Assembly (NCBI RefSeq): GCF_037414475.1
Contig: NZ_CP147913.1
Span: 6,818,001 to 6,882,000, forward strand
Direction of reading: 5' to 3'
Source: Myxococcus stipitatus
GTDB taxonomy: Bacteria > Myxococcota > Myxococcia > Myxococcales > Myxococcaceae
DNA: 64,000 nt
Part shown: positions 15,046 to 27,321 of the stretch, in pieces
Layout: each line of letters starts with the position of its first letter
How positions within the stretch are numbered: the first letter of the stretch is position 1
Position numbers and translations under genes: made by a program
The notes under the pieces: generated by a model
Told to the model about the DNA's origin: nothing
Seen by the model: the letters and a program-made list of their open reading frames with translations, nothing else
Databases searched by the model: none

Positions 15046-15903
15046 ATGGCCTTTGGTCGAAACAAGAACCGCCGCCGTCAGGACGCCGCCCAGCGAAACG
15101 AGGCGGTCAAAGGCGCGGTGCGTTCAAAGGGACCGGGCGTGTTGAAGGTGCTGGCGCTGACGCTGGTGACGGGCCTGTTGGTGTGGGGTGGGGTGGAATT
15201 GCGGCGCTGGGCGCTCCAGTCGCCCCGGTTCGAGCTGGCGGCGGTGTCGTTCTCCGGCCTGCAGCGCGCCTCGCGCGTGGAGTTGTTGCGGCTGGCGGCG
15301 CTGACGAAGGGGCAGAACCTCTGGGCGTTGGACGTGGGCGCGCTGGAGCGGGCCATGCTCCAGCACCCGTGGGTGAAGAAGGTGGAGGTGTCCCGGCGCT
15401 TTCCCAACCGCGTGTCCGTCGCGGTGACGGAGCACGTGCCGGAGGCACTGGCGGTGCTGGGCGAGCTGTACGTGTTGGACGAGGAGGGCGAGCCCTTCAA
15501 GCGGGTGACGCCAGGGGATGGACTGGACCTGCCGCTCGTCACCGGGGTGGACCGGGAGGGCTACGTGACGGACCCGGACCAGGCGCGCCAGCGGTTCCAG
15601 GCGGCGCTGGAGGTGGCTCGGGCGTATACGAAGGCGGCGGCGCCGGGCAAGCCCGAGCGGCTGTCCGAGGTCCGGATGGATGGGCGGGACGTGACGCTGG
15701 TGGCGGCTTCCGGTCAGGAAGTGCGCCTAGGCGAAGGAGATTCCGAGGTCAAGCTGCAGCGGTTGGCCCGTGTCCGGCGCGAACTGGGCGCCAGGGGGCT
15801 TGCAGCGGAGATCATTCACCTGGATAACCGGGCCCGGCCCGGTTGGGTGGCGGTGAAGATTTCGAGCCCCGTGTCCGAGAGGAGCGGGAGCGCGAAGCCG
15901 TAA
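15046..15903 (+). CDS. ftsQ: cell division protein FtsQ (DivIB family, POTRA domain)
   Basis: 285 residues: a basic cytoplasmic start rich in Arg/Lys, one TM segment (about residues 34-52), then a POTRA domain beginning FELAAVSFSGLQRASRVELL, and a beta domain containing NRVSVAVTEHVPEALA. FtsQ connects early and late divisome proteins in the periplasm. I chose ATG 15046 (protein start MAFGRNKNRR) because it gives the usual short basic N-terminus. The frame is open about 90 bp further upstream. Confidence 0.92.
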   Translation: MAFGRNKNRRRQDAAQRNEAVKGAVRSKGPGVLKVLALTLVTGLLVWGGVELRRWALQSPRFELAAVSFSGLQRASRVELLRLAALTKGQNLWALDVGALERAMLQHPWVKKVEVSRRFPNRVSVAVTEHVPEALAVLGELYVLDEEGEPFKRVTPGDGLDLPLVTGVDREGYVTDPDQARQRFQAALEVARAYTKAAAPGKPERLSEVRMDGRDVTLVAASGQEVRLGEGDSEVKLQRLARVRRELGARGLAAEIIHLDNRARPGWVAVKISSPVSERSGSAKP

Positions 15904-15947
15904 GAGGACGCCCCTTTCACGAGAGTGGGGGGCCTGGGAGGGTTGTC

Positions 15948-17180
15948 ATGGCGAAGCAGAAGTCGGGGGAGATTATTGTCGGCCTCGACATCGGCACGAC
16001 GAAGATTTGCGCCATCGTCGGGGAGCTGACCGACAGCGGTATCGACATCATCGGTATCGGGACGCATCCGTCGAAGGGGTTGCGCAAGGGCGTGGTGGTC
16101 AACATCGAGGCGACCGTCTCCTCCATCCGCCGCGCGATTGAAGAAGCGGAGCTGATGGCGGGCGCCGAGATTTCCCATGTCTACACGGGGATCGCCGGTG
16201 GCCACATCAAGGGCTTCAATTCCCAGGGCATCGTCGCGGTGAAGGACAAGGAGGTCCGCGAGGCGGACATCGCCCGAGTCATCGACGCGGCCAAGGCGGT
16301 GGCCATTCCGCTGGACCGGGAAGTCATCCACGTGCTGCCCCAGGAGTTCATCATCGATGACCAGGGCGGCATCAAGGAGCCCCTGGGCATGGCGGGCGTG
16401 CGCCTGGAGGCCAAGGTGCACATCGTCACGGGCGCCGTCTCCAGCGCGCAGAACATCGTCAAGTGCGCGAACCGGACGGGCCTGAATGTTTCAGACATCG
16501 TCCTGCAGCCCCTGGCGAGCGCCGAGGCGGTGCTGGGCGATGACGAGAAGGAACTGGGTGTCTGCCTCGTCGACATCGGCGGTGGCACCACGGACATCGC
16601 CATCTTCTCCGGCGGCTCCATCGTCCACACGGCGGTGATTGCACTGGGTGGCAACAACCTCACCAGTGATATTGCCATCGGGTTGCGCACTCCGGCCCAC
16701 GAGGCCGAGCGCATCAAGCAGAAGTACGGCTGCGCGCTGGCGTCGCTCATCAACAAGGACGACACCCTGGAAGTGCCCAGCGTGGGCGGGCGTCAGCCCC
16801 GCGTCCTCGGGCGGCAGATTCTCTGCGAGATTCTGGAGCCGCGCGTCGAGGAGATCTTCCAACTGGTGCATCGGGAGATCCAGAAGTGCGGCTACGAGGA
16901 CCTGCTGGCCTCGGGCGTGGTGATTACCGGTGGCTCCACGCTGCTGGCGGGCATGCCGGAGCTGGCCGAGGAAGTGCTCGGGCTGCCGGTGCGCCGGGGC
17001 ATGCCGCGCGGCATCGGCGGGTTGGTGGACGTGGTGAAGAGCCCCATGTACGCGACGGGCGTGGGCCTGGTCGTCTACGGTGCCAAGCACCTGGACCGGC
17101 GGATGTTCCGCATCCGCGAAGAGAACGTGTACAAGAAGGTGAAGGGCCGCATGCGCGAGTGGCTCGAGGAAATCTTCTAG
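15948..17180 (+). CDS. ftsA: cell division actin homologue FtsA
   Basis: 410 residues. The actin-fold phosphate loops are clear: IIVGLDIGTTKICAIVG at residues 8-24 and VDIGGGTTDIAIF near 208; the SHVYTGIAGGHIKG piece belongs to the FtsA-specific 1C domain. The C-terminus (VYKKVKGRMREWLEEIF) forms the amphipathic membrane-targeting helix. FtsA tethers FtsZ to the membrane. The ATG follows a GGGAGGG site. Unusually, ftsZ is not the next gene: 8.9 kb separates them. Confidence 0.98.
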   Translation: MAKQKSGEIIVGLDIGTTKICAIVGELTDSGIDIIGIGTHPSKGLRKGVVVNIEATVSSIRRAIEEAELMAGAEISHVYTGIAGGHIKGFNSQGIVAVKDKEVREADIARVIDAAKAVAIPLDREVIHVLPQEFIIDDQGGIKEPLGMAGVRLEAKVHIVTGAVSSAQNIVKCANRTGLNVSDIVLQPLASAEAVLGDDEKELGVCLVDIGGGTTDIAIFSGGSIVHTAVIALGGNNLTSDIAIGLRTPAHEAERIKQKYGCALASLINKDDTLEVPSVGGRQPRVLGRQILCEILEPRVEEIFQLVHREIQKCGYEDLLASGVVITGGSTLLAGMPELAEEVLGLPVRRGMPRGIGGLVDVVKSPMYATGVGLVVYGAKHLDRRMFRIREENVYKKVKGRMREWLEEIF

Positions 17181-17214
17181 CGCCGCGAGGACGCGAGAGC
17201 GTCCCGGTGCAACG

Positions 17215-17253
17215 AGAGGGGCTCTTCCACCTGGGAGGGCCCCTCTTCTTTTT
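17215..17253 (+). terminator. intrinsic terminator of the dcw cluster
   Basis: An 8-bp stem (AGAGGGGC at 17215-17222 paired with GCCCCTCT at 17239-17246) is followed by a pyrimidine/T-rich run TCTTTTT. It lies 35 bp after the ftsA stop and would end the dcw transcript before the giant surface-protein gene. Confidence 0.85.
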
Positions 17254-17554
17254 GGACGCAGTGCGCCACGGGTAGTGCGGGTCCGGGGGCTGGAGCTGAC
17301 GCGTCAGGGCGGGTTCGTTTCCCCGGATTGACGGGTCAAAGGAGCGCAGAGCGGGCAGTGACTGGGGGTTCAAAGGATCCGGTTTCCAGAATCTGGATCC
17401 GTGATTCGGATCCTCGGGGGTGCGCAGGGGAAAGTCGCCCTGGAAACGCCTCGGAAGGATGTGCGCCGAGAACTGGACGGGCGCTGGCGCTGGGATTGCT
17501 ATGAGCGTTTCCTCGCTGCCGCATTTCCCTTTCCGTGTGTGTGGCGCCAGTCCT
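17254..17554 (+). promoter_or_regulatory. upstream region of the giant Ig/OmpA gene
   Basis: About 300 bp with no credible gene and lower GC than its surroundings. It contains three GGATCC hexamers (17375-17380, 17395-17400, 17408-17413), the first two flanking a small CCAGAATCTGG inverted repeat. As it follows a terminator and precedes a large monocistronic gene, it must hold that gene's promoter; I cannot assign -35/-10 boxes with confidence. Confidence 0.4.
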
Positions 17555-20500
17555 ATGAATCCGAACTCACAAACTCCTACTCCGCTCGTAGTGGCACGGC
17601 GTGTACGAGCCCGAGCGCCCATCGCGGCGCTGCTGGCGCTCCTGTGCACCGCGCTCTTGGCACCTGCCGCAGCTCGGGCCGAGGCCGACTCCTTCCACCT
17701 GGGCGACGGCTCGGACGGCGCGCTCAGCGTCACCGCCGCGAACACGGTCATCAACACGTACGCACGGGTGACGGCCGCGGTTCCGGCAGGCCAGTCCTTC
17801 GTGAACGTGTCTTCGTCGACGGGGTTCGCCGTTGGTGACCTGGTGCTGGTGTTCCAGGCCACGGGGCTGACGGCGCCCGCCGCGGGCAATCAGACGCCGG
17901 TCGACCTGAACCTCCCGGCGAACGTCGGAGTCGGCCGCTGGGAGTTCGGGCGTGTGGCGGCTGTGACGGCCACGCGCCTCACCTTCTCGGCTCCGCTCAC
18001 GGTGCCCTTCGCGGCCAACACGGCGCAGGCCATCCGGGTTCCCGAGTACACGACGGTGACGGTGGGCGCCGCGGGAAGCATTGTCGCCCAGCCCTGGGAT
18101 GGGCAGACGGGCGGCGTGGTCATCTTCCTGGCCAGGAACGCGGTGACGAACGCTGGAACCATCTCCGCGAGCGGCGCGGGTTTCCGTGGCGGCATCTTCT
18201 CCAACGGCAACGGTGATAGCTGCACTGGCATCAACCAGGCGTATCCGGGCGGCGCGGCGAAGGGCGAGGGCGTGGTGGCCGCGAACTACTCTCCCTCCTT
18301 CCCGTTCACGGGGACCTCGACGGGCTACGGCAACATCGCGAACGGCGCTGGTGGCGGTATCTGCCACAACTCGGGCGGTGGCGGCGGTGGTGGCGCGGGT
18401 GGGGGTGGCAAGGGTGGACGCACCTGGAGCGGCGATGTTCCTCCGTCGCGTGATATCGGCGGTCGGGGTGGCGCTCAGATGGTCTTCACCGCCGTGAACC
18501 ACATGCTGTTCGGCGGCGGCGGCGGCGCGGGGCATAGCAATGATGACTTTGGCGGTGCAGGCAGCGCGGCGGGTGGCATCGTGTTCATCCGTGCCGCTTC
18601 TCTCTCCGGGACGGGAGCCATCTCCGCCAACGGCGTGGCGGGCGAGAATACGCATGGGGACGGAAATGACGCGGCCGGTGGTGGCGGCGCGGGCGGCACC
18701 CTCTACCTGCGCTTCACGGGGACCCTGACCTGCAACGCGAACCAGGTATCGGCGCGCGGTGGCAATGGTGGCAGTACCATCTTCGCACAGCACGGGACGG
18801 GTGGTGGTGGTGGCGGCGGTCGCGTGTTGCTCCAGGGTAGCACCGTCACGTGTGTGCCCAATGTGTCGGGCGGTACTCCGGGAACTCAAGCCGATACGGA
18901 GGCTCAGGATGGAGCCACATATGGTGCCATCGCGGGCAGCCCGGGCGTCGTTGAGCCCATCGCCGGTGGTTTCGAGACGCCGACCGCGCCGGTTGTGGTG
19001 ACGCCGGCCAACGGTTCCACCACGGGCGTGCGTCCTGCCATCACGGGTACGGCGACCGCGAACTCCACGGTCATCATCTACGTGGATGGGGTGGAGCTGG
19101 CGCGTGTCCCCGCCGACAACCTCGGGAACTTCACGTATACGCCGACCACGGACCTGACTGTCGGCGCGCACACGGTGAATGCGGTCTCCGTGCTGAACGG
19201 CGCGAGCAGCGTGCGCAGCAACACCAACAGCTTCACGGTGCAGAACTCCCTGCCGCCGCCGGTCATTGTCAGCCCGGCGAACAACGCGGTGCTGACGACG
19301 GCGCCGACGCAAATCACGGGCACGGCGTCCGGTGGTGCGACGAGCGTGGTGGTGACGCTCAATGGCGTGACCTATCCCCCCACGCCTGTGTCGGGCGGAA
19401 ACTGGACCTTCCCGATTCCCATCACCGTGACGGATGGTGTCTACAACGTGTCTGTGGTCGCCCAGGATGCGAGCCGCACGAGCACCGCGACGACCTCCAC
19501 CTTCACGGTCGACACGCAGACGTCCGTGAGCATCACGACGCCGGCGGATGGTGCCGTGTTGACGAACCCGGTGGTGACATACACGGGTACGGCGGAGCCG
19601 GGCGCCACGGTGACGGTGACGGTGGATGGCAACCCCGTGGGCACGGTGACCGCGGCCGCCAATGGCGCCTGGGCGGTTACCGGGGCCACGCCGCTGACGA
19701 ACGGTCCGCACACGGTGACGGCCACGGCGCAGGACGTCGCTGGCAACACCGCGACGGACACGAACAGCTTCACGGTGGACACGGGGACCTCGGTCAGCAT
19801 CGCGACTCCCGCGGACGGGGCGGTGCTCTCGAGCGGCGTGGTCACGTACTCGGGCACGGCGGAGCCGGGCGCCACGGTGACTGTGACGGTGGACGGTACC
19901 GTCGTGGGCACGGTGACGGCGAGCGCGGGTGGAAGCTGGTCCGTGCCGGTGGCCGCGACGCTGGCGGATGGCGCGCACACGGTGACGGCGACGGCGCAGG
20001 ACACGGCGGGCAACACCGCGACGGACACGAACACCTTCACGGTGGACACGGGGACCTTTGTCAGCGTCACGACTCCCGCGGAGGGAGCGGTGCTGACGAA
20101 CGGCGTGGTGACGTACGCGGGTACGGCGGAGCCGGGTGCCACGGTGACGGTGAGCGTGGACGGCACGACGGTGGGGACGGTGACGGCGGCCGCGAACGGG
20201 ACCTGGTCGCTGCCGGTGGCGGCGTCGCTGGCGGATGGCGTGCACGCGGTGACGGCGACGGCGGATGACGGCCGGGGCCACACCGCGACGGACACCAACG
20301 CCTTCACGGTGGATGCACACACCTCGGTGAACATCGCGGGGCCGGTGGATGGCTCGACGGTGCGGAACCCGGTGGTGACGTACACGGGTACGGCGGAGCC
20401 GGGCGCCACGGTGACGGTGAGCGTGGATGGCACGGTGGTGGACACGGTGACCGCGGGCCCGGATGGCTCCTGGTCGCTGCCTGTTGCCACGCCGCTGCCG

Positions 20501-23500
20501 GAGGGGCCGCACACGGTGACGGCGTCCGCGCGGGACACGAGCGGCAACACGGCGACGGACTCCAACACCTTCACGGTGGATTCGTCGACAGCGGTGAGCA
20601 TCACGACGCCGGCGGATGGCGCGTACTTGACCAGCGGAGTCGTGACGTACACGGGTACGGCGGAGCCGGGTGCCACGGTGACGGTGACCGTGGACGGCAA
20701 CGTCGTGGGTACGACGACGGCGGCCGCGAATGGAAGCTGGTCGGTGCCGGGAGTCTCGTCGCTGGGTGACGGGCCGCACTCGGTGACGGCCACGGCGGAA
20801 GATGAGGCGGGCAACACCGCGACGGACACGAACGCCTTCACGGTGGATACGTCGACGGCGGTGAGCATCTCCACGCCGGTGGATGGCTCGGTCATCAACA
20901 ACGCGGTGGTGACGTACTCGGGTACGGCGGAGCCGGGTGCCACGGTGACGGTGAGCGTGGACGGCACCGTCGTGGGCACGACGACGGCGGCGGCGAACGG
21001 AACCTGGTCGGTGCCGGGTGTCGCGACGTTGAGCGAGGGCCCGCACTCGGTGACGGCCACGGCGGAAGACGAGGCTGGCAACACGGCGTCAGACACGAAC
21101 ACCTTCACGGTGAACACGCAGACGTCGGTGAGCATCACGACGCCGGCGGATGGCGCGGTGCTGACGGACGGCGTGGTGACGTACTCCGGTACCGCGGAGG
21201 CGGGTGCCACGGTGACGGTGAGCGTCGATGGCAACATCGTGGGCACGGTGACGGCGGCGGCGAACGGAACCTGGTCCTTGCCGGTTCCCGCGACGCTGGT
21301 GGATGGCCCGCACTCCGTGACGGCCACGGCCGATGACGGAAGCGGCAACACCGCGACGGACACGAACACCTTCACGGTGAACACGCAGACGTCGGTGAGC
21401 ATCACGACGCCGGCGGATGGCGCGGTGCTGACGAGCGGCGTGGTGACGTACACGGGTACGGCGGAGCCGGGCGCCACGGTGACGGTGACCGTGGACGGCA
21501 ACGTCGTGGGCACGACGACGGCGGCGGCGAACGGAAGCTGGTCGGTGTCGGGCGTCGCGACGTTGGGCGAGGGCCCGCACTCGGTGACGGCCACGGCGGA
21601 AGACGAGGCGGGCAACACCGCGACGGACACGAACACCTTCACGGTCGACACGCAGACCTTCGTCACCATCACGGCCCCGGCGGAAGGCGCGGTGCTGCCG
21701 GGCGGCGTGGTGACGTACTCGGGCACGGCGGAGCTGGGGGCCCTGGTGACGGTGACCGTGGACGGCAACGGTGTCGGGACAGCGACCGTGGCGCCGAACG
21801 GCACTTGGTCCCTGTCGGTGCCTTCGACGCTGGCGGATGGCAACCACACGGTGACGGCCACGGCGGAGGATGAGGCCGGCAACACCGCGACGGACACGAA
21901 CACCTTCCGGGTGGACTCGCGGACGTCGGTGGTCATCACCACTCCGGTGGACGGTGCGGTGCTTCAGGATGGCTCGGTCACGTACACGGGTACGGCGGAG
22001 CCGGGTGCCACGGTGACGGTGACGGTGGATGGCAACGTCATCGGGACGGTGGTCGCGGCCGCGGACGGCAACTGGATGATGCCGGGGCCCGCGACGCTGG
22101 CGGATGGTCCTCACTCCGTGACGGCCACGGCGGAGGATGATGCGGGCAACACCGCGACGGACACGAACGCCTTCCGAGTGGATACGAGCACGTCGGTGGA
22201 CATCACGGCTCCGACGGAGGGTGAGGTGCTGACGAACGGCGTGGTGACGTACACGGGTACCGCCGAGCCGGGTGTGACGGTGACGGTCCAGGTGGACGGC
22301 GTCACGGTGGGGACTGTCACGGCGACGGTGGATGGCACCTGGTCTCTGCCGGTGGCCGCGCCGCTGTTCGACGGACCGCACACGGTGGTCGCGACGGCCG
22401 AGGACTCCACGGGCAACACGGCCACGGACACGGTGAACTTCGCCGTGGACACGGTGCCGGATACCCGCATCACGGAGAACCCGGCCGCGACGTCCAGTTC
22501 CATGATCGCGCGGTTCAACTTCGTCTCGGTCTCTGGAGATCCGCGTGACACCTTCGAGTGCTCGCTCGATGGCGCCGCCTTCGCGGTCTGCACGGGCCCC
22601 ATCGACTACACGAACCTGCCGCAAGGCCAGCACACCTTCCAGGTGCGCGCGGTGGATGCCGATGGCGACGTGGACGCCACGCCCGCGACCTTCAACTGGG
22701 TCATCAGCATCGACACCGATGGCGATGGTCTGAGTGACGAGGAAGAGGTGACGCACGGCACCGACCCGAACAACCCCGACACGGATGGTGACGGCATTCC
22801 GGACGGCATCGAGGTGAACGTCGGTGGGACGGACCCGCTCGACGACGACACGGACGATGACGGTCTGCTCGACGGCACCGAGGACAAGGACCACGACGGC
22901 ATCGTCGACCCGGGCGAAACCAGCCCCGTGTTGGCGGACACCGACGGCGACGGCCTGCAGGACGGCACGGAGCTCGGCATCACCCAGCCCGAGGGCTCCG
23001 ACACCGACACCACGGTCTTCATCCCGGATGCGGACCCGACCACCACCACGGACCCGCTCAACGTCGACACCGACGGTGGCAGCGTGCGTGACGGCGTGGA
23101 GGACAAGAACCACAACGGCCGCGTGGACCCGGGTGAGACCAACCCGAACGTCGCCGCGGACGACAAGGACTCCGACCTGGACGGCATCGACGACGAGACT
23201 GAAATCGAGCTGGGTCTGGATCCGCACGACGCCGACACGGACGATGACGGCGTGCCCGACGGCGAGGACGGCATCACCGACACGGATGGGGACGGCCGCA
23301 TCGACGCGAACGACCCGGACAGCGACAACGACGGTGTGAACGACGGCACGGAGCGCGGTGTCACCCGCGAGACGGCGCCTCCGGGCACCAATGTCGATTC
23401 GCCCAACTTCGTGCCGGACGCGGACCCGTCCACCACCACCGACCCGAAGCGGGCGGACACGGATGGGGACGGCCTCAAGGACGGTGAAGAGGACGTGGAC

Positions 23501-25666
23501 CACAACGGCCGCGTTGACGCGACGGAGACCAACCCGAACGACGCCGACACGGATGACGACGCCCTGCCGGACGGCGTCGAGGTCAAGGGTGCCAACGCCA
23601 CCAACCCCCTCAACCCGGACACGGATGGGGACGGCCTGAAGGACGGCGTGGAGGACGCGAACCACAACGGTGCCATCGACCGTGGTGAGACGGACCCGAA
23701 CGACCGCGACACCGACCGTGGCGGCGCGAGCGACGGAGACGAAGTCAACGGAGGCACCAACCCCCTCAACGGCAATGACGACTTCGTCGTCGTGGGCCGT
23801 GGCTGCAGCACGGGCGGGGCGGGGACCTTCGCGCCGCTGGCGCTGCTGCTCCTGGCGCTTCCGCTGCTGGGCCGCCTTCGCCGCGCGACGGAGCGTTCGT
23901 CGCGGGGCCTGGCGGCGGGCCTCGCCGGGGGCCTGGCCCTCGGTGGGGTGATGGTGGCGCAGCCCGCGCAGGCGCAGGTGGTCGCGCCGACGGGGGCGTC
24001 GCAGTCCATCGACGTGCAGCGCTTCAAGCCGGGCCCGGGCGCCGAGGACATCCTCGGCATCCACAGCGCCCGCGTGCAGCGCCACCTGGGGCTCAACCTG
24101 GGGGTGTCGCTCAACTACGGGAGCAAGCCGCTCAACTTCCTGGACCCTCGTTCGGACCGGTTCATCACCGCGTTGGTGAGCCGTCAGCTGGGCGTGGACC
24201 TGATGGGCGCGGTGGGTCTGTTCGACCGCTTCGAGCTCGGCATCGTGTTGCCGGTGACGTTCCAGGACTCGGACCCGGCGCCGCAGGTGGACTCGTCCTT
24301 CTCGAAGGGCGTGGGCTCCGGTGGCATCGGTGACCTGCGCCTGGTTCCGAAGGCGCGCCTCATCGACGCGGAGCGCTTCGGCCTCGCGTTGGTGGTGCCG
24401 GTGTCCCTGCCCACGGCGGGCGGCAACGACTTCCTCGGTGGCTCCGGGGTGGGAGTGCAGCCCAAGCTGGTGGCCGAGTACGGGGAGGCCGTCCGCTTCG
24501 CGGCCAACGTGGGCGTGGACCTGCGAAAGAAGCAGGTGCTGCGCAACCTGACGGCGGGCAACGCCTTCACCTACGGCCTGGGCACGGAGATTCCCTTCAC
24601 GCTGGGCCGGTTACCGCTGTCCGCCGAGGCGACGGTGATTGGCGCCATCGGATTGGATGAGCAGGACACGGAGGAGAGCCCGCTGGAGCTGCTCGCCGCG
24701 CTGAAGTACCGCGCGCCGAGCGGGTTCACCGCGCACCTGGGCGGTGGTCCGGGCCTCACCCGGGGCTATGGCACGCCGGGCTACCGGCTGCTGGCGGGCT
24801 TCAGCTACAGCCCGCCGGTGACGCAGCAGCGCGCGGAGCCGCCTCCTCCGTTGGACTCGGATGGTGACGGCATCTACGACCGGGACGACCGCTGCCCGAA
24901 GGAGCCCGAGGACAAGGACGGCTTCCAGGACGAGGACGGCTGCCCCGACCCGGACAATGACCAGGACGGCATCCTCGATGGCGCCGACCAGTGCATGAAC
25001 GTCCCCGAGACGTCGAACGGCTTCCAGGACGAGGACGGCTGCCCGGACGAGGCTCCGCCCGTGGACTCGGATGGCGACGGCATCATGGACCCGGCCGACA
25101 AGTGCCCGGGCCAGGCCGAGGACAAGGACGGCTTCGAGGACGCGGACGGCTGCCCCGACCCGGACAACGACAAGGACGGCATCCCGGACGTGGCGGACAA
25201 GTGCCCGCTCGAGCCGGAGGTCATCAACGGCGTGGATGACGAGGACGGCTGCCCGGACAAGGGCAAGGTGAAGGTCCAGGTGGACGGCGAGCGCGTCGTC
25301 ATCCTGGAGAAGGTCCACTTCGCCACGGGCAAGGACATCATCCTCCCGCGCTCCTTCCCGCTGCTGAAGCAGGTGGCCGCGGTGCTGCGCGCCAACCCGC
25401 AGGTGGAGCTGCTGCGGGTGGAGGGCCACACGGACAGCGACGGCAACGACGCGGCCAACCTGGACCTGTCGCGCCGCCGCGCCGCCAATGTGCGCGCCTT
25501 CCTGGAGAAGGAAGGCATCGCCGCTGCCCGTCTGGAGTCGCAGGGCTACGGCGAGACGAAGCCGGTGGACACCAACAAGACGGCGAAGGGCCGCGAGAAC
25601 AACCGCCGCGTGGAGTTCACCATCCTCCGCGTGGGCAAGGTGGAAGTGGAGCGCGAGAGCCCCTGA
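17555..25666 (+). CDS. giant surface polyprotein: Ig-like repeats + TSP3 + internal MYXO-CTERM + OmpA outer-membrane protein (AgmC-like)
   Basis: 2703 residues from ATG 17555 (in-frame ATG 17501 is an alternative; neither has a strong ribosome-binding site). Order seen: signal peptide (about 1-42, ending AAARA); Gly-rich domain (to about 470); two divergent Ig-like domains; eleven Ig-like repeats of exactly 89 residues (657-1635); one further divergent domain; a first TSP3 block of DxDGDG-type calcium loops (about 1722-2072); a MYXO-CTERM-like motif (G2083-C2084, hydrophobic 2092-2106, Arg cluster 2107-2117); a second signal-like segment ending AQA at 2140; a beta-barrel (about 2141-2430); a second, Cys-containing TSP3 block; and an OmpA peptidoglycan-binding domain (about 2575-2695, HTDSDGN and NRRVEF motifs). 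Similar myxobacterial proteins have been annotated AgmC (gliding); I cannot verify that here. It probably acts in the outer envelope. Confidence 0.88.
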   Translation: MNPNSQTPTPLVVARRVRARAPIAALLALLCTALLAPAAARAEADSFHLGDGSDGALSVTAANTVINTYARVTAAVPAGQSFVNVSSSTGFAVGDLVLVFQATGLTAPAAGNQTPVDLNLPANVGVGRWEFGRVAAVTATRLTFSAPLTVPFAANTAQAIRVPEYTTVTVGAAGSIVAQPWDGQTGGVVIFLARNAVTNAGTISASGAGFRGGIFSNGNGDSCTGINQAYPGGAAKGEGVVAANYSPSFPFTGTSTGYGNIANGAGGGICHNSGGGGGGGAGGGGKGGRTWSGDVPPSRDIGGRGGAQMVFTAVNHMLFGGGGGAGHSNDDFGGAGSAAGGIVFIRAASLSGTGAISANGVAGENTHGDGNDAAGGGGAGGTLYLRFTGTLTCNANQVSARGGNGGSTIFAQHGTGGGGGGGRVLLQGSTVTCVPNVSGGTPGTQADTEAQDGATYGAIAGSPGVVEPIAGGFETPTAPVVVTPANGSTTGVRPAITGTATANSTVIIYVDGVELARVPADNLGNFTYTPTTDLTVGAHTVNAVSVLNGASSVRSNTNSFTVQNSLPPPVIVSPANNAVLTTAPTQITGTASGGATSVVVTLNGVTYPPTPVSGGNWTFPIPITVTDGVYNVSVVAQDASRTSTATTSTFTVDTQTSVSITTPADGAVLTNPVVTYTGTAEPGATVTVTVDGNPVGTVTAAANGAWAVTGATPLTNGPHTVTATAQDVAGNTATDTNSFTVDTGTSVSIATPADGAVLSSGVVTYSGTAEPGATVTVTVDGTVVGTVTASAGGSWSVPVAATLADGAHTVTATAQDTAGNTATDTNTFTVDTGTFVSVTTPAEGAVLTNGVVTYAGTAEPGATVTVSVDGTTVGTVTAAANGTWSLPVAASLADGVHAVTATADDGRGHTATDTNAFTVDAHTSVNIAGPVDGSTVRNPVVTYTGTAEPGATVTVSVDGTVVDTVTAGPDGSWSLPVATPLPEGPHTVTASARDTSGNTATDSNTFTVDSSTAVSITTPADGAYLTSGVVTYTGTAEPGATVTVTVDGNVVGTTTAAANGSWSVPGVSSLGDGPHSVTATAEDEAGNTATDTNAFTVDTSTAVSISTPVDGSVINNAVVTYSGTAEPGATVTVSVDGTVVGTTTAAANGTWSVPGVATLSEGPHSVTATAEDEAGNTASDTNTFTVNTQTSVSITTPADGAVLTDGVVTYSGTAEAGATVTVSVDGNIVGTVTAAANGTWSLPVPATLVDGPHSVTATADDGSGNTATDTNTFTVNTQTSVSITTPADGAVLTSGVVTYTGTAEPGATVTVTVDGNVVGTTTAAANGSWSVSGVATLGEGPHSVTATAEDEAGNTATDTNTFTVDTQTFVTITAPAEGAVLPGGVVTYSGTAELGALVTVTVDGNGVGTATVAPNGTWSLSVPSTLADGNHTVTATAEDEAGNTATDTNTFRVDSRTSVVITTPVDGAVLQDGSVTYTGTAEPGATVTVTVDGNVIGTVVAAADGNWMMPGPATLADGPHSVTATAEDDAGNTATDTNAFRVDTSTSVDITAPTEGEVLTNGVVTYTGTAEPGVTVTVQVDGVTVGTVTATVDGTWSLPVAAPLFDGPHTVVATAEDSTGNTATDTVNFAVDTVPDTRITENPAATSSSMIARFNFVSVSGDPRDTFECSLDGAAFAVCTGPIDYTNLPQGQHTFQVRAVDADGDVDATPATFNWVISIDTDGDGLSDEEEVTHGTDPNNPDTDGDGIPDGIEVNVGGTDPLDDDTDDDGLLDGTEDKDHDGIVDPGETSPVLADTDGDGLQDGTELGITQPEGSDTDTTVFIPDADPTTTTDPLNVDTDGGSVRDGVEDKNHNGRVDPGETNPNVAADDKDSDLDGIDDETEIELGLDPHDADTDDDGVPDGEDGITDTDGDGRIDANDPDSDNDGVNDGTERGVTRETAPPGTNVDSPNFVPDADPSTTTDPKRADTDGDGLKDGEEDVDHNGRVDATETNPNDADTDDDALPDGVEVKGANATNPLNPDTDGDGLKDGVEDANHNGAIDRGETDPNDRDTDRGGASDGDEVNGGTNPLNGNDDFVVVGRGCSTGGAGTFAPLALLLLALPLLGRLRRATERSSRGLAAGLAGGLALGGVMVAQPAQAQVVAPTGASQSIDVQRFKPGPGAEDILGIHSARVQRHLGLNLGVSLNYGSKPLNFLDPRSDRFITALVSRQLGVDLMGAVGLFDRFELGIVLPVTFQDSDPAPQVDSSFSKGVGSGGIGDLRLVPKARLIDAERFGLALVVPVSLPTAGGNDFLGGSGVGVQPKLVAEYGEAVRFAANVGVDLRKKQVLRNLTAGNAFTYGLGTEIPFTLGRLPLSAEATVIGAIGLDEQDTEESPLELLAALKYRAPSGFTAHLGGGPGLTRGYGTPGYRLLAGFSYSPPVTQQRAEPPPPLDSDGDGIYDRDDRCPKEPEDKDGFQDEDGCPDPDNDQDGILDGADQCMNVPETSNGFQDEDGCPDEAPPVDSDGDGIMDPADKCPGQAEDKDGFEDADGCPDPDNDKDGIPDVADKCPLEPEVINGVDDEDGCPDKGKVKVQVDGERVVILEKVHFATGKDIILPRSFPLLKQVAAVLRANPQVELLRVEGHTDSDGNDAANLDLSRRRAANVRAFLEKEGIAAARLESQGYGETKPVDTNKTAKGRENNRRVEFTILRVGKVEVERESP
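19523..22459 (+). repeat. 11 tandem 267-bp repeats (89-residue Ig-like modules)
   Basis: Unit starts fall at 19523, 19790, 20057 and 20324, exactly 267 bp apart, and eleven units fill the interval. Each begins with an S-V-S-I-T-T-P-A-D-G-A-V-L type strand, continues with Y-T-G-T-A-E-P-G-A-T-V-T-V and ends A-T-D-T-N-T-F-T-V. Long stretches of nucleotide identity between units suggest recent homogenisation or duplication, so copy number may vary between strains. Confidence 0.95.
22720..23772 (+). repeat. thrombospondin type-3-like calcium-binding repeat block
   Basis: A dense series of DTDGDGLxDGxE and DxDxDGxxD loops within the giant gene (about residues 1722-2072), spaced by short T-D-P-N-N-P-D type linkers. 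Such loops bind calcium and make stiff rods. The block separates the Ig array from the internal MYXO-CTERM motif, so it would be the membrane-proximal stalk. Confidence 0.85.
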
Positions 25667-25730
25667 TGCACTCGCGCCACCCCAGGCGCCCACCATGGCG
25701 CCCGGGGGCTGACATTCGCAGTCGCTGATG

Positions 25731-25775
25731 CGAGGGTGGTTCCGGAAGGTCGTCCGGGACCACCCTCGGTTTTTG
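25731..25775 (+). terminator. intrinsic terminator after the giant gene
   Basis: A perfect 10-bp stem (CGAGGGTGGT at 25731-25740 with ACCACCCTCG at 25759-25768) is followed by GTTTTTGG. It lies 65 bp after the stop and isolates the giant gene from ftsZ. Confidence 0.85.
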
Positions 25776-26097
25776 GAGCGGAGGGGTTCCATCACCCAGG
25801 GTCGGTGCCGACTGGCACACCGTGGAGACCTCGGGCGTGGGGGGAAATCAGGGCCCGCCGTCGCAGGGGGAACCCAGCAGGGGGCGTGGCATTTCGCGAG
25901 TCAAGGGGCCAGGTGGACCCACCATGCCGCGCTGCTTGCTTTCGACGCCGCCGTGTAAGTCCGCGTCAGGACTCGGCGCAGCGCCATCCCGCTACATGTG
26001 CGTAGCGGAATACTTGCCAAAGATCTGGACTTGCTGATGATGGTGGAGGTTGGAGGCCCGCGCGCTGCGTCGCGCGACGCCTGCCGAAAGGACCGCC
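25776..26097 (+). promoter_or_regulatory. ftsZ leader and presumed promoter region
   Basis: About 320 bp between a terminator and the ftsZ start, without a convincing gene. Because the upstream terminator is strong, ftsZ must have its own promoter here. The stretch just before the start (about 25990-26040) is the most AT-rich part and the likeliest promoter position; no box is assigned with confidence. Confidence 0.45.
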
Positions 26098-27321
26098 ATG
26101 GACCAGTTTGATCAGAGCAAGCAGGCCGCCAAGATTCGGGTCGTCGGGGCGGGCGGGGCCGGCTGCAACGCGGTCAACACGATGATTCTGTCCAAGCTGG
26201 ACCGGGTCGACTTCATTGCCGCCAACACCGATATCCAGGCGCTTGCCGCGAGCAAGGCGCCCACGCGGCTTCAGCTGGGCCAGACGCTGACCAAGGGTCT
26301 GGGCGCTGGCGCCAACCCGGAGATGGGCCGCGAGGCCGCGCTGGAGTCGAGGGACCAGATTGCCGCGGTGCTCGAGGGCGCCGACATGGTCTTCGTGACG
26401 GCGGGCATGGGCGGTGGCACGGGCACGGGCGCCGCGCCCATCATCGCGGACATCGCCAAGAGCCTGGGTTGCCTCACGGTGGGGGTCGTCACCAAGCCGT
26501 TCCTCTTCGAGGGCAACAAGCGCCGCAAGCAGGCCGAGCAGGGCATCGTCGAGCTCAAGGCCGCGGTGGACACGCTCATCACCATTCCGAACCAGCGTCT
26601 GCTGTCGCTCTCCAACGCGCCCATGCCGCTCTTGGAGACCTTCAAGCGCGCGGACGAGGTGCTGCTCAACGCCGTGCAGGGCATCAGCGACCTCATCCAG
26701 TACCACGGCTACATCAACGTCGACTTCGCCGACGTGAAGACCATCATGAGCGACAAGGGTCTGGCGCTCATGGGCACGGGGCACTCCTCCGGGGAGAAGC
26801 GCGCGCTCACCGCCATGCAGCAGGCCATCGCCAGCCCGTTGCTCGAGGACGTCTCCATCGACGGCGCCACGGGCCTGCTCATCAACATCACGGGCGGCCG
26901 GGACATGACGCTTCAGGAGGTCAACGAGGCGCTCACCCTGGTCCACGACGCGGCCGACAGCGAGGCGGAGATCATCTTCGGTTCGCTCATCGATGAGAAC
27001 ATCCAGGACGAGGTGAAGATCACCATCATCGCCACGGGCTTCGTCCATCGCGACGCGCCCAAGGTTCGCCCCGTGGCGCCGGTGGTGCAGGTCCCTTTGG
27101 CCCGTCCGCCGCAGCAGTCCGTGCTCATCGGCGCGCGTGAGGAAGTGGCCAGCCTGGTTCCCGCGAAGGGTGGCGCGCCGCGTCCCCTGGCCGCGGTGGA
27201 TGCCAACAAGGCCATCAGCAACCGCACGGCCGTGGTGAAGGACTCCGCGCTCCCGCTGGACGAGGACCAGTTCGACATCCCCACGTTCCTGCGCCGCCAG
27301 GGGCAGACCGAGCTCCCGTAA
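26098..27321 (+). CDS. ftsZ: cell division GTPase FtsZ
   Basis: 407 residues. It has the N-terminal [11 protein letters not shown] nucleotide loop, the tubulin signature GGGTGTG near residues 104-110, a T7-like [11 protein letters not shown] segment and the conserved C-terminal peptide (IPTFLRR, about 394-400) that binds FtsA and other partners, preceded by a disordered linker. FtsZ polymerises into the Z ring. The ATG follows a GAAAGGA site 8 bp upstream; the frame is open a little further but the chosen start gives the usual N-terminus. Confidence 0.99.

Follow-up and report, generated by a model that had tools for sequence, protein, structure and literature searches.

In the 64,000-nucleotide stretch of the Myxococcus stipitatus genome analysed here (contig NZ_CP147913.1, positions 6,818,001 to 6,882,000; hereafter the window), one gene on the forward strand (17555..25666, 2703 amino acids from its ATG) probably encodes a precursor from which myxosortase and signal peptidase produce two proteins, an adhesin with a lipid anchor and a barrel that binds the wall. 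Its predicted parts follow one another in a single chain: an adhesin (AgmC-type head, Ig-like repeats and TSP3 stalk), then a MYXO-CTERM motif, then a second signal peptide that leads into a TraB-like barrel/OmpA protein. As judged from sequence, the precursor unites two kinds of parts that elsewhere have a gene each. An initial annotation of this DNA had claimed a MYXO-CTERM-like anchor inside one 2703-codon frame, followed by a second signal-like segment, and the open frame confirms both. It had also called the product a natural surface/outer-membrane polyprotein: comparison with relatives supports the two-signal precursor well, while the splitting itself is predicted.

The junction and its conservation

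At the junction between the two halves, Gly-Cys (residues 2083-2084, 23801-23806) is followed by a hydrophobic helix and by RLRR at residues 2107-2110, and the sequence, a profile and an alignment of relatives together place the internal MYXO-CTERM at 23801..23884. After RLRR, a second hydrophobic stretch ends with AQA at residues 2138-2140. This segment, whose n-region takes in the Arg cluster, is read from the sequence and from relatives as a second signal peptide (23873..23974), whose cut would fall between AQA and the following Gln. The Cys motif, helix and Arg cluster of the family TIGR03901 are all present in the anchor, but it does not lie at the very C-terminus, as is the norm for this family, since about 590 residues come after it. 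TIGR03901 has 23 matches in the same genome, 21 of them terminal and 2 internal (150 of 272 candidates scored), and the genome also carries a gene for the myxosortase MrtX (450 bits for a cut-off of 180). A loosely defined tandem (Cys, helix, Arg/Lys pair, helix, AxA) matched only once, at the junction, among the 310 six-frame reading frames of at least 100 amino acids in the window (78,546 residues), and when the precursor protein was shuffled 300 times, 2 of the shuffled sequences matched.

From the anchor Cys to the cleavage site, the frame contains no ATG, GTG or TTG codons other than GTG-ATG-GTG at 23948-23956, and the window junction has no start codon in the interval from the Arg cluster to the second core. 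The initial annotation had stated that no usable start precedes the second signal, and this holds for the window gene because its only in-frame start codons there lie inside the second helix. A GTG is located at 23792, immediately ahead of the anchor, and an inverted repeat at 23733-23793.

The C-terminal half of the precursor has some match in all 96 family genomes searched, and in 27 of 27 own-genus genomes the best match crosses the junction with no intervening stop (in both cases among the matches listed). For at least 65 of the 96 family genomes, the match starts within the first four query residues and the frame has a length of at least 1000; in one of these genomes, G035, the match contains one stop. 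These matches across genus and family genomes rule out that the gene is a lone oddity. A search for the same fused architecture and for separated homologues, as suggested by the initial annotation, yielded 139 distinct barrel homologues, of which 79 are fused, 7 split and 53 solo. These homologues are a collected, non-random sample, obtained from 172 sources with a barrel match by removing L001, L002, L074-L107, the window copy, partial barrels and identical copies, and the solo class includes L133 and L173, both cut at a contig end with their upstream part beyond the contig. Five fused loci (L137, L140, L144, L167 and L170) come from metagenome-assembled genome records not named Myxococcaceae or Archangiaceae. 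The gene ftsZ adjoins 45 of the 139 loci, flanking sequence being short for many of them, and all 45 are fused.

The Gly-Cys and A-x-A-Q motifs are invariant in all 35 aligned Myxococcaceae loci (L003-L037, the window's own among them). Since 79 of the 139 homologues are fused and these motifs never vary, the junction is no artefact. The initial annotation had named an in-frame artefact joining two genes, with a real stop between them, as one finding that would overturn its claim; the absence of any stop in the 27 genus genomes, the single-contig genome and the 45 fused ftsZ-adjacent loci rule it out, leaving a sequencing or assembly error with a negligible probability. Over the same 35 loci, the ratio of non-synonymous to synonymous changes (pN/pS, as plain proportions uncorrected for repeated changes) is 0.44 before the anchor, 0.38 in the anchor, 0.80 in the loop and second helix, and 0.51 in the barrel. 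We read the second segment as a putative cleaved signal peptide because the loop and helix vary most while A-x-A-Q stays fixed, free change next to a fixed cleavage site being the pattern expected of such a peptide. Among the 79 fused copies, the site behind the second helix is AxAQ in 74, another AxA in 3 and a looser one in 2. Of the unfused homologues, 43 of the 53 solo and 5 of the 7 split ones carry AxA at this position. The median hydropathy of the segment is 2.34 in fused (n=79), 2.12 in split (n=7) and 2.42 in solo (n=52) homologues. The predicted signal peptide of unfused homologues sits where fused copies have their second signal.

Fusion and fission of the two parts

The same genome contains a second fused MYXO-CTERM and TraB-like barrel protein (L108, G000:C1:2138800-2145600, minus strand), encoded by a 1874-residue frame. 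Its adhesin part has a lipoprotein-like N-terminus and repeats named kelch-like from reading. A strong match to this second locus was found in 24 of the 25 genus genomes searched (G068, with a weak match, was left out of the counts). According to classes assigned by reading the sequences (L204-L227), 6 of the 24 orthologues are fused and 18 split, 10 of the latter by a stop in the same frame and 8 with the parts in another frame, and MYXO-CTERM lies directly ahead of the barrel in all 24. In a tree of these 24 rows, three changes between fused and split are forced by well-supported branches.

Genome G063, a single contig, shows a clean 57-bp in-frame gap relative to the split copies of G074 and G077. 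Lost in the gap are the stop and adjoining end of the first gene, the spacer and, from the second gene, the start codon and first five codons; the anchor helix, second helix and AxA are intact, and the Arg tail is joined to the remainder of the old n-region. As G063 nests among split relatives, the gap is read as a deletion. This case parallels the earlier proposal that the Arg cluster of the window gene serves as the n-region of its second signal. Relatives thereby show a possible origin for such a precursor, namely the loss of stop and start between two neighbouring genes.

Changes of this kind extend across the barrel tree. In a quick tree of 118 of the 139 rows, whose long branches make the distant rows unsure, the fused label needs 10 changes, 6 of which are forced by well-supported branches. 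In a careful tree of 45 rows, solo copies L069, L070, L071 and L110 form a fork supported at 100/100 with fused L067 and L127, and the clade around this fork comprises 35 fused and 5 solo rows. Because these solo copies group with fused ones inside a mostly fused clade, their fused ancestor probably lost its adhesin half, and what had been its internal signal now apparently serves as an N-terminal one (although fusion may instead have happened in parallel). L110 belongs to the M. stipitatus genome itself (G000:C1:10177500-10183600), where this solo barrel/OmpA paralogue is located downstream of regulator-like frames; it looks like the remnant of a fused ancestor.

Two-gene arrangements of similar parts are also found in this genome. 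The gene ahead of traB (L109) ends in MYXO-CTERM and overlaps traB by ATGA, so that the order of signals in this traA/traB pair is the same as in the fused precursor. In a pair of reverse order (L202:311-8805), a weakly TraB-like barrel gene overlaps an AgmC-type gene by ATGA; the AgmC-type protein is 2344 residues long, its head scores 208 bits where the cut-off is 275, and it ends in a MYXO-CTERM of 20.9 bits. A 792-residue frame at L203 (G000:C1:4010500-4017000) has an AgmC domain above cut-off and a terminal MYXO-CTERM, and this frame contains no barrel.

On an evenly balanced judgement, a MYXO-CTERM surface protein and a TraB-like wall-bound barrel may constitute a general two-part device of the Myxococcota, which repeatedly passes between two genes and one polyprotein, and in which the barrel is the adhesin's dedicated outer-membrane partner. 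If so, TraA/TraB would be one instance of a larger class of adhesin-barrel pairs, and repeated fusion and fission would arise because one signal's tail can merge directly into the head of the following signal. Fused copies suggest which barrel may function together with which adhesin.

Known systems and the proposed processing

The core of this finding is mostly anticipated by Guo, Haft and Wall, who in 2025 reported an internal MYXO-CTERM in M. xanthus MXAN_5598 and proposed processing of its N-terminal part (PMC11980579). The finding is therefore less novel than the initial annotation supposed. The same study treats MXAN_5598 as a possible fusion of two genes, notes its likeness to TraA/TraB, calls internal MYXO-CTERM motifs rare and suggests a link between attachment and the cell cycle for the locus (PMC11980579). 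As in the window gene, a large adhesin with an internal MYXO-CTERM is followed by a barrel and OmpA domain, beside ftsA/ftsZ (PMC11980579), and on this domain order and these neighbours we presume the two to be orthologues. MXAN_5598 has also been listed among M. xanthus vesicle proteins, as an "OmpA domain protein" (PMC4158809). In the literature collection searched, MXAN_5598 came up in these two papers alone. Neither "second signal" nor "polyprotein" occurs in the main text of PMC11980579; the second signal peptide, the wide conservation, the two-gene forms, and the repeated fusion and fission at the second locus are added here.

The TraA/TraB exchange pair offers the closest layout, with a MYXO-CTERM surface protein followed directly by a signal peptide, a barrel and OmpA (PMC3325183). 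It consists, however, of two genes overlapping by ATGA (a four-base overlap in M. xanthus; PMC3325183) instead of the one gene of the window, and TraA has PA14 and Cys repeats (PMC3325183). The barrel of the window differs as well, as it scores 329 bits with the TraB family (NF033763), for a cut-off of 700, while another gene of the genome scores 1016.

To our knowledge, secreted polyproteins are rare in bacteria. The FbcH cytochrome b/c1 precursor of Bradyrhizobium is split by signal peptidase at an internal signal, but its products are respiratory and, unlike the window precursor, are not known to carry a sortase-like tag. A further comparison is provided by the archaeal HVO_0405, in which we know of no outer-membrane barrel. 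In that protein, two once-independent genes are fused and a central sorting site is cleaved by the archaeosortase ArtA; the fusion is archaeal and strain-specific (PMC7157517).

Under the processing that we propose, the first signal peptide would start Sec export of the precursor, the MYXO-CTERM helix would halt it, leaving the Arg cluster on the cytoplasmic side, and the second hydrophobic segment would restart it, giving an out-in-out topology. One chain with two sorting signals would in this way thread out, in, and out again. A cut by signal peptidase I behind AQA (residue 2140) would release the barrel, which would then insert into the outer membrane, while the MYXO-CTERM Cys would be lipidated and MrtX would cut behind it. 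The type II system would then place the adhesin on the surface, according to the transport model for MYXO-CTERM proteins of PMC11980579. Adhesin and wall-bound barrel would be made in equal amounts and could work as TraA and TraB do. Fused copies offer a simple system for asking whether myxosortase and signal peptidase can both process a single precursor.

Several points weigh against this processing and its context. Cleavage, the 1:1 yield and myxosortase dependence are predictions. The anchor of the window gene reaches 15.8 and 17.3 bits and that of the second locus in the same genome 19.0 bits, all under the TIGR03901 curated cut-off of 20. The signal of this second-locus copy ends in A-x-G, with the cut before Gln, and not in AxA; the fused second-locus copies of its branch share this site, which is weaker but allowed for signal peptidase. 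The split class is defined by motif and distance, ATGA overlaps having been read in the own genome alone, and orthology with MXAN_5598 was assigned from domain order and neighbours. Finally, a start-codon survey (67 of 72 loci with a locatable junction, recounted on 65 distinct fused loci) detected an in-frame ATG, GTG or TTG in the stretch separating the Arg cluster from the second core in 32 of the 65 junctions and, within a looser zone, in 57 of the 65, at variable positions.

As 32 of the 65 junctions have such a codon, mostly GTG, internal starts could be used in about half of the relatives, and the ATG of L044, L045 and L051 would yield a plausible signal peptide. It is nevertheless unlikely that the barrel is a second protein made from an internal start instead of by cleavage, since the other 33 junctions, including that of the window, have no such codon, positions differ between clades, and the GTG-ATG-GTG of the window, inside the core, would yield a protein without a signal peptide. 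We also find it improbable that the protein stays whole, its two helices forming a membrane hairpin or an uncleaved linker between adhesin and barrel. An AlphaFold2 model (pLDDT 73.7, pTM 0.48) does show helices at model residues 15-33 and 41-57, though with a pLDDT of only about 41-54, and the single frame is kept in many lineages. However, if such a hairpin stayed in the inner membrane, it would presumably tether the barrel there, AxA is retained in 77 of the 79 fused copies, and similar parts are two genes in relatives and in the own genome. Very unlikely, too, is a precursor with one working signal, in which signal peptidase frees the barrel while the MYXO-CTERM is not used by MrtX and acts as a plain membrane anchor. 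The sub-threshold TIGR03901 scores would fit this reading, as would the surface defect of TraA without mrtX, which is not absolute (PMC11980579), but the invariance of Gly-Cys in the 35 loci and the low pN/pS of the anchor argue against it, and two papers are cited for functional internal tags in PMC11980579.

Gene layout and neighbourhood

The reading frame of the precursor is free of stops from a GTG at 17420, or from the ATG at 17555, to the stop at 25666. An N-terminal signal peptide (17555..17680), as read from the sequence, is predicted to be cut after ARA (residue 42). It is followed by a profile match to the AgmC N-terminal domain (NF047640; 17636..18877), which passes the cut-off of 275 bits with 405 and 411 bits and is the top scorer among the 6 matches of this family in the genome. 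The literature collection searched contained no paper on AgmC together with Myxococcus. Domain matches identify bacterial Ig-like repeats (Big_13 / Ca_tandemer) at about 19517..22459 and a TSP3-type Asp-rich stalk (TSP3_bac) at about 22712..23779, the limits of both being approximate and taken from the sequence.

Beyond the junction, the layout of a TraB-like barrel/OmpA protein is complete, with signal peptide, barrel, Asp-rich linker and OmpA domain all present. The outer-membrane beta-barrel (23975..24808) is predicted from the strands of the AlphaFold2 model and from Foldseek, whose top matches are the periplasmic part of a Capnocytophaga OmpA and the FapF barrel. A TSP3-like linker follows at about 24854..25258, as read from the sequence and from a fold match to 5wtl, and then an OmpA peptidoglycan-binding domain (PF00691; 25319..25606).

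The local gene order is a run of mur genes, then ftsA (15843..17180), the precursor gene and ftsZ (26050..27321), both neighbours being annotated on the same strand. A giant surface-protein gene is thus located between ftsA and ftsZ (window positions 15843-27321).

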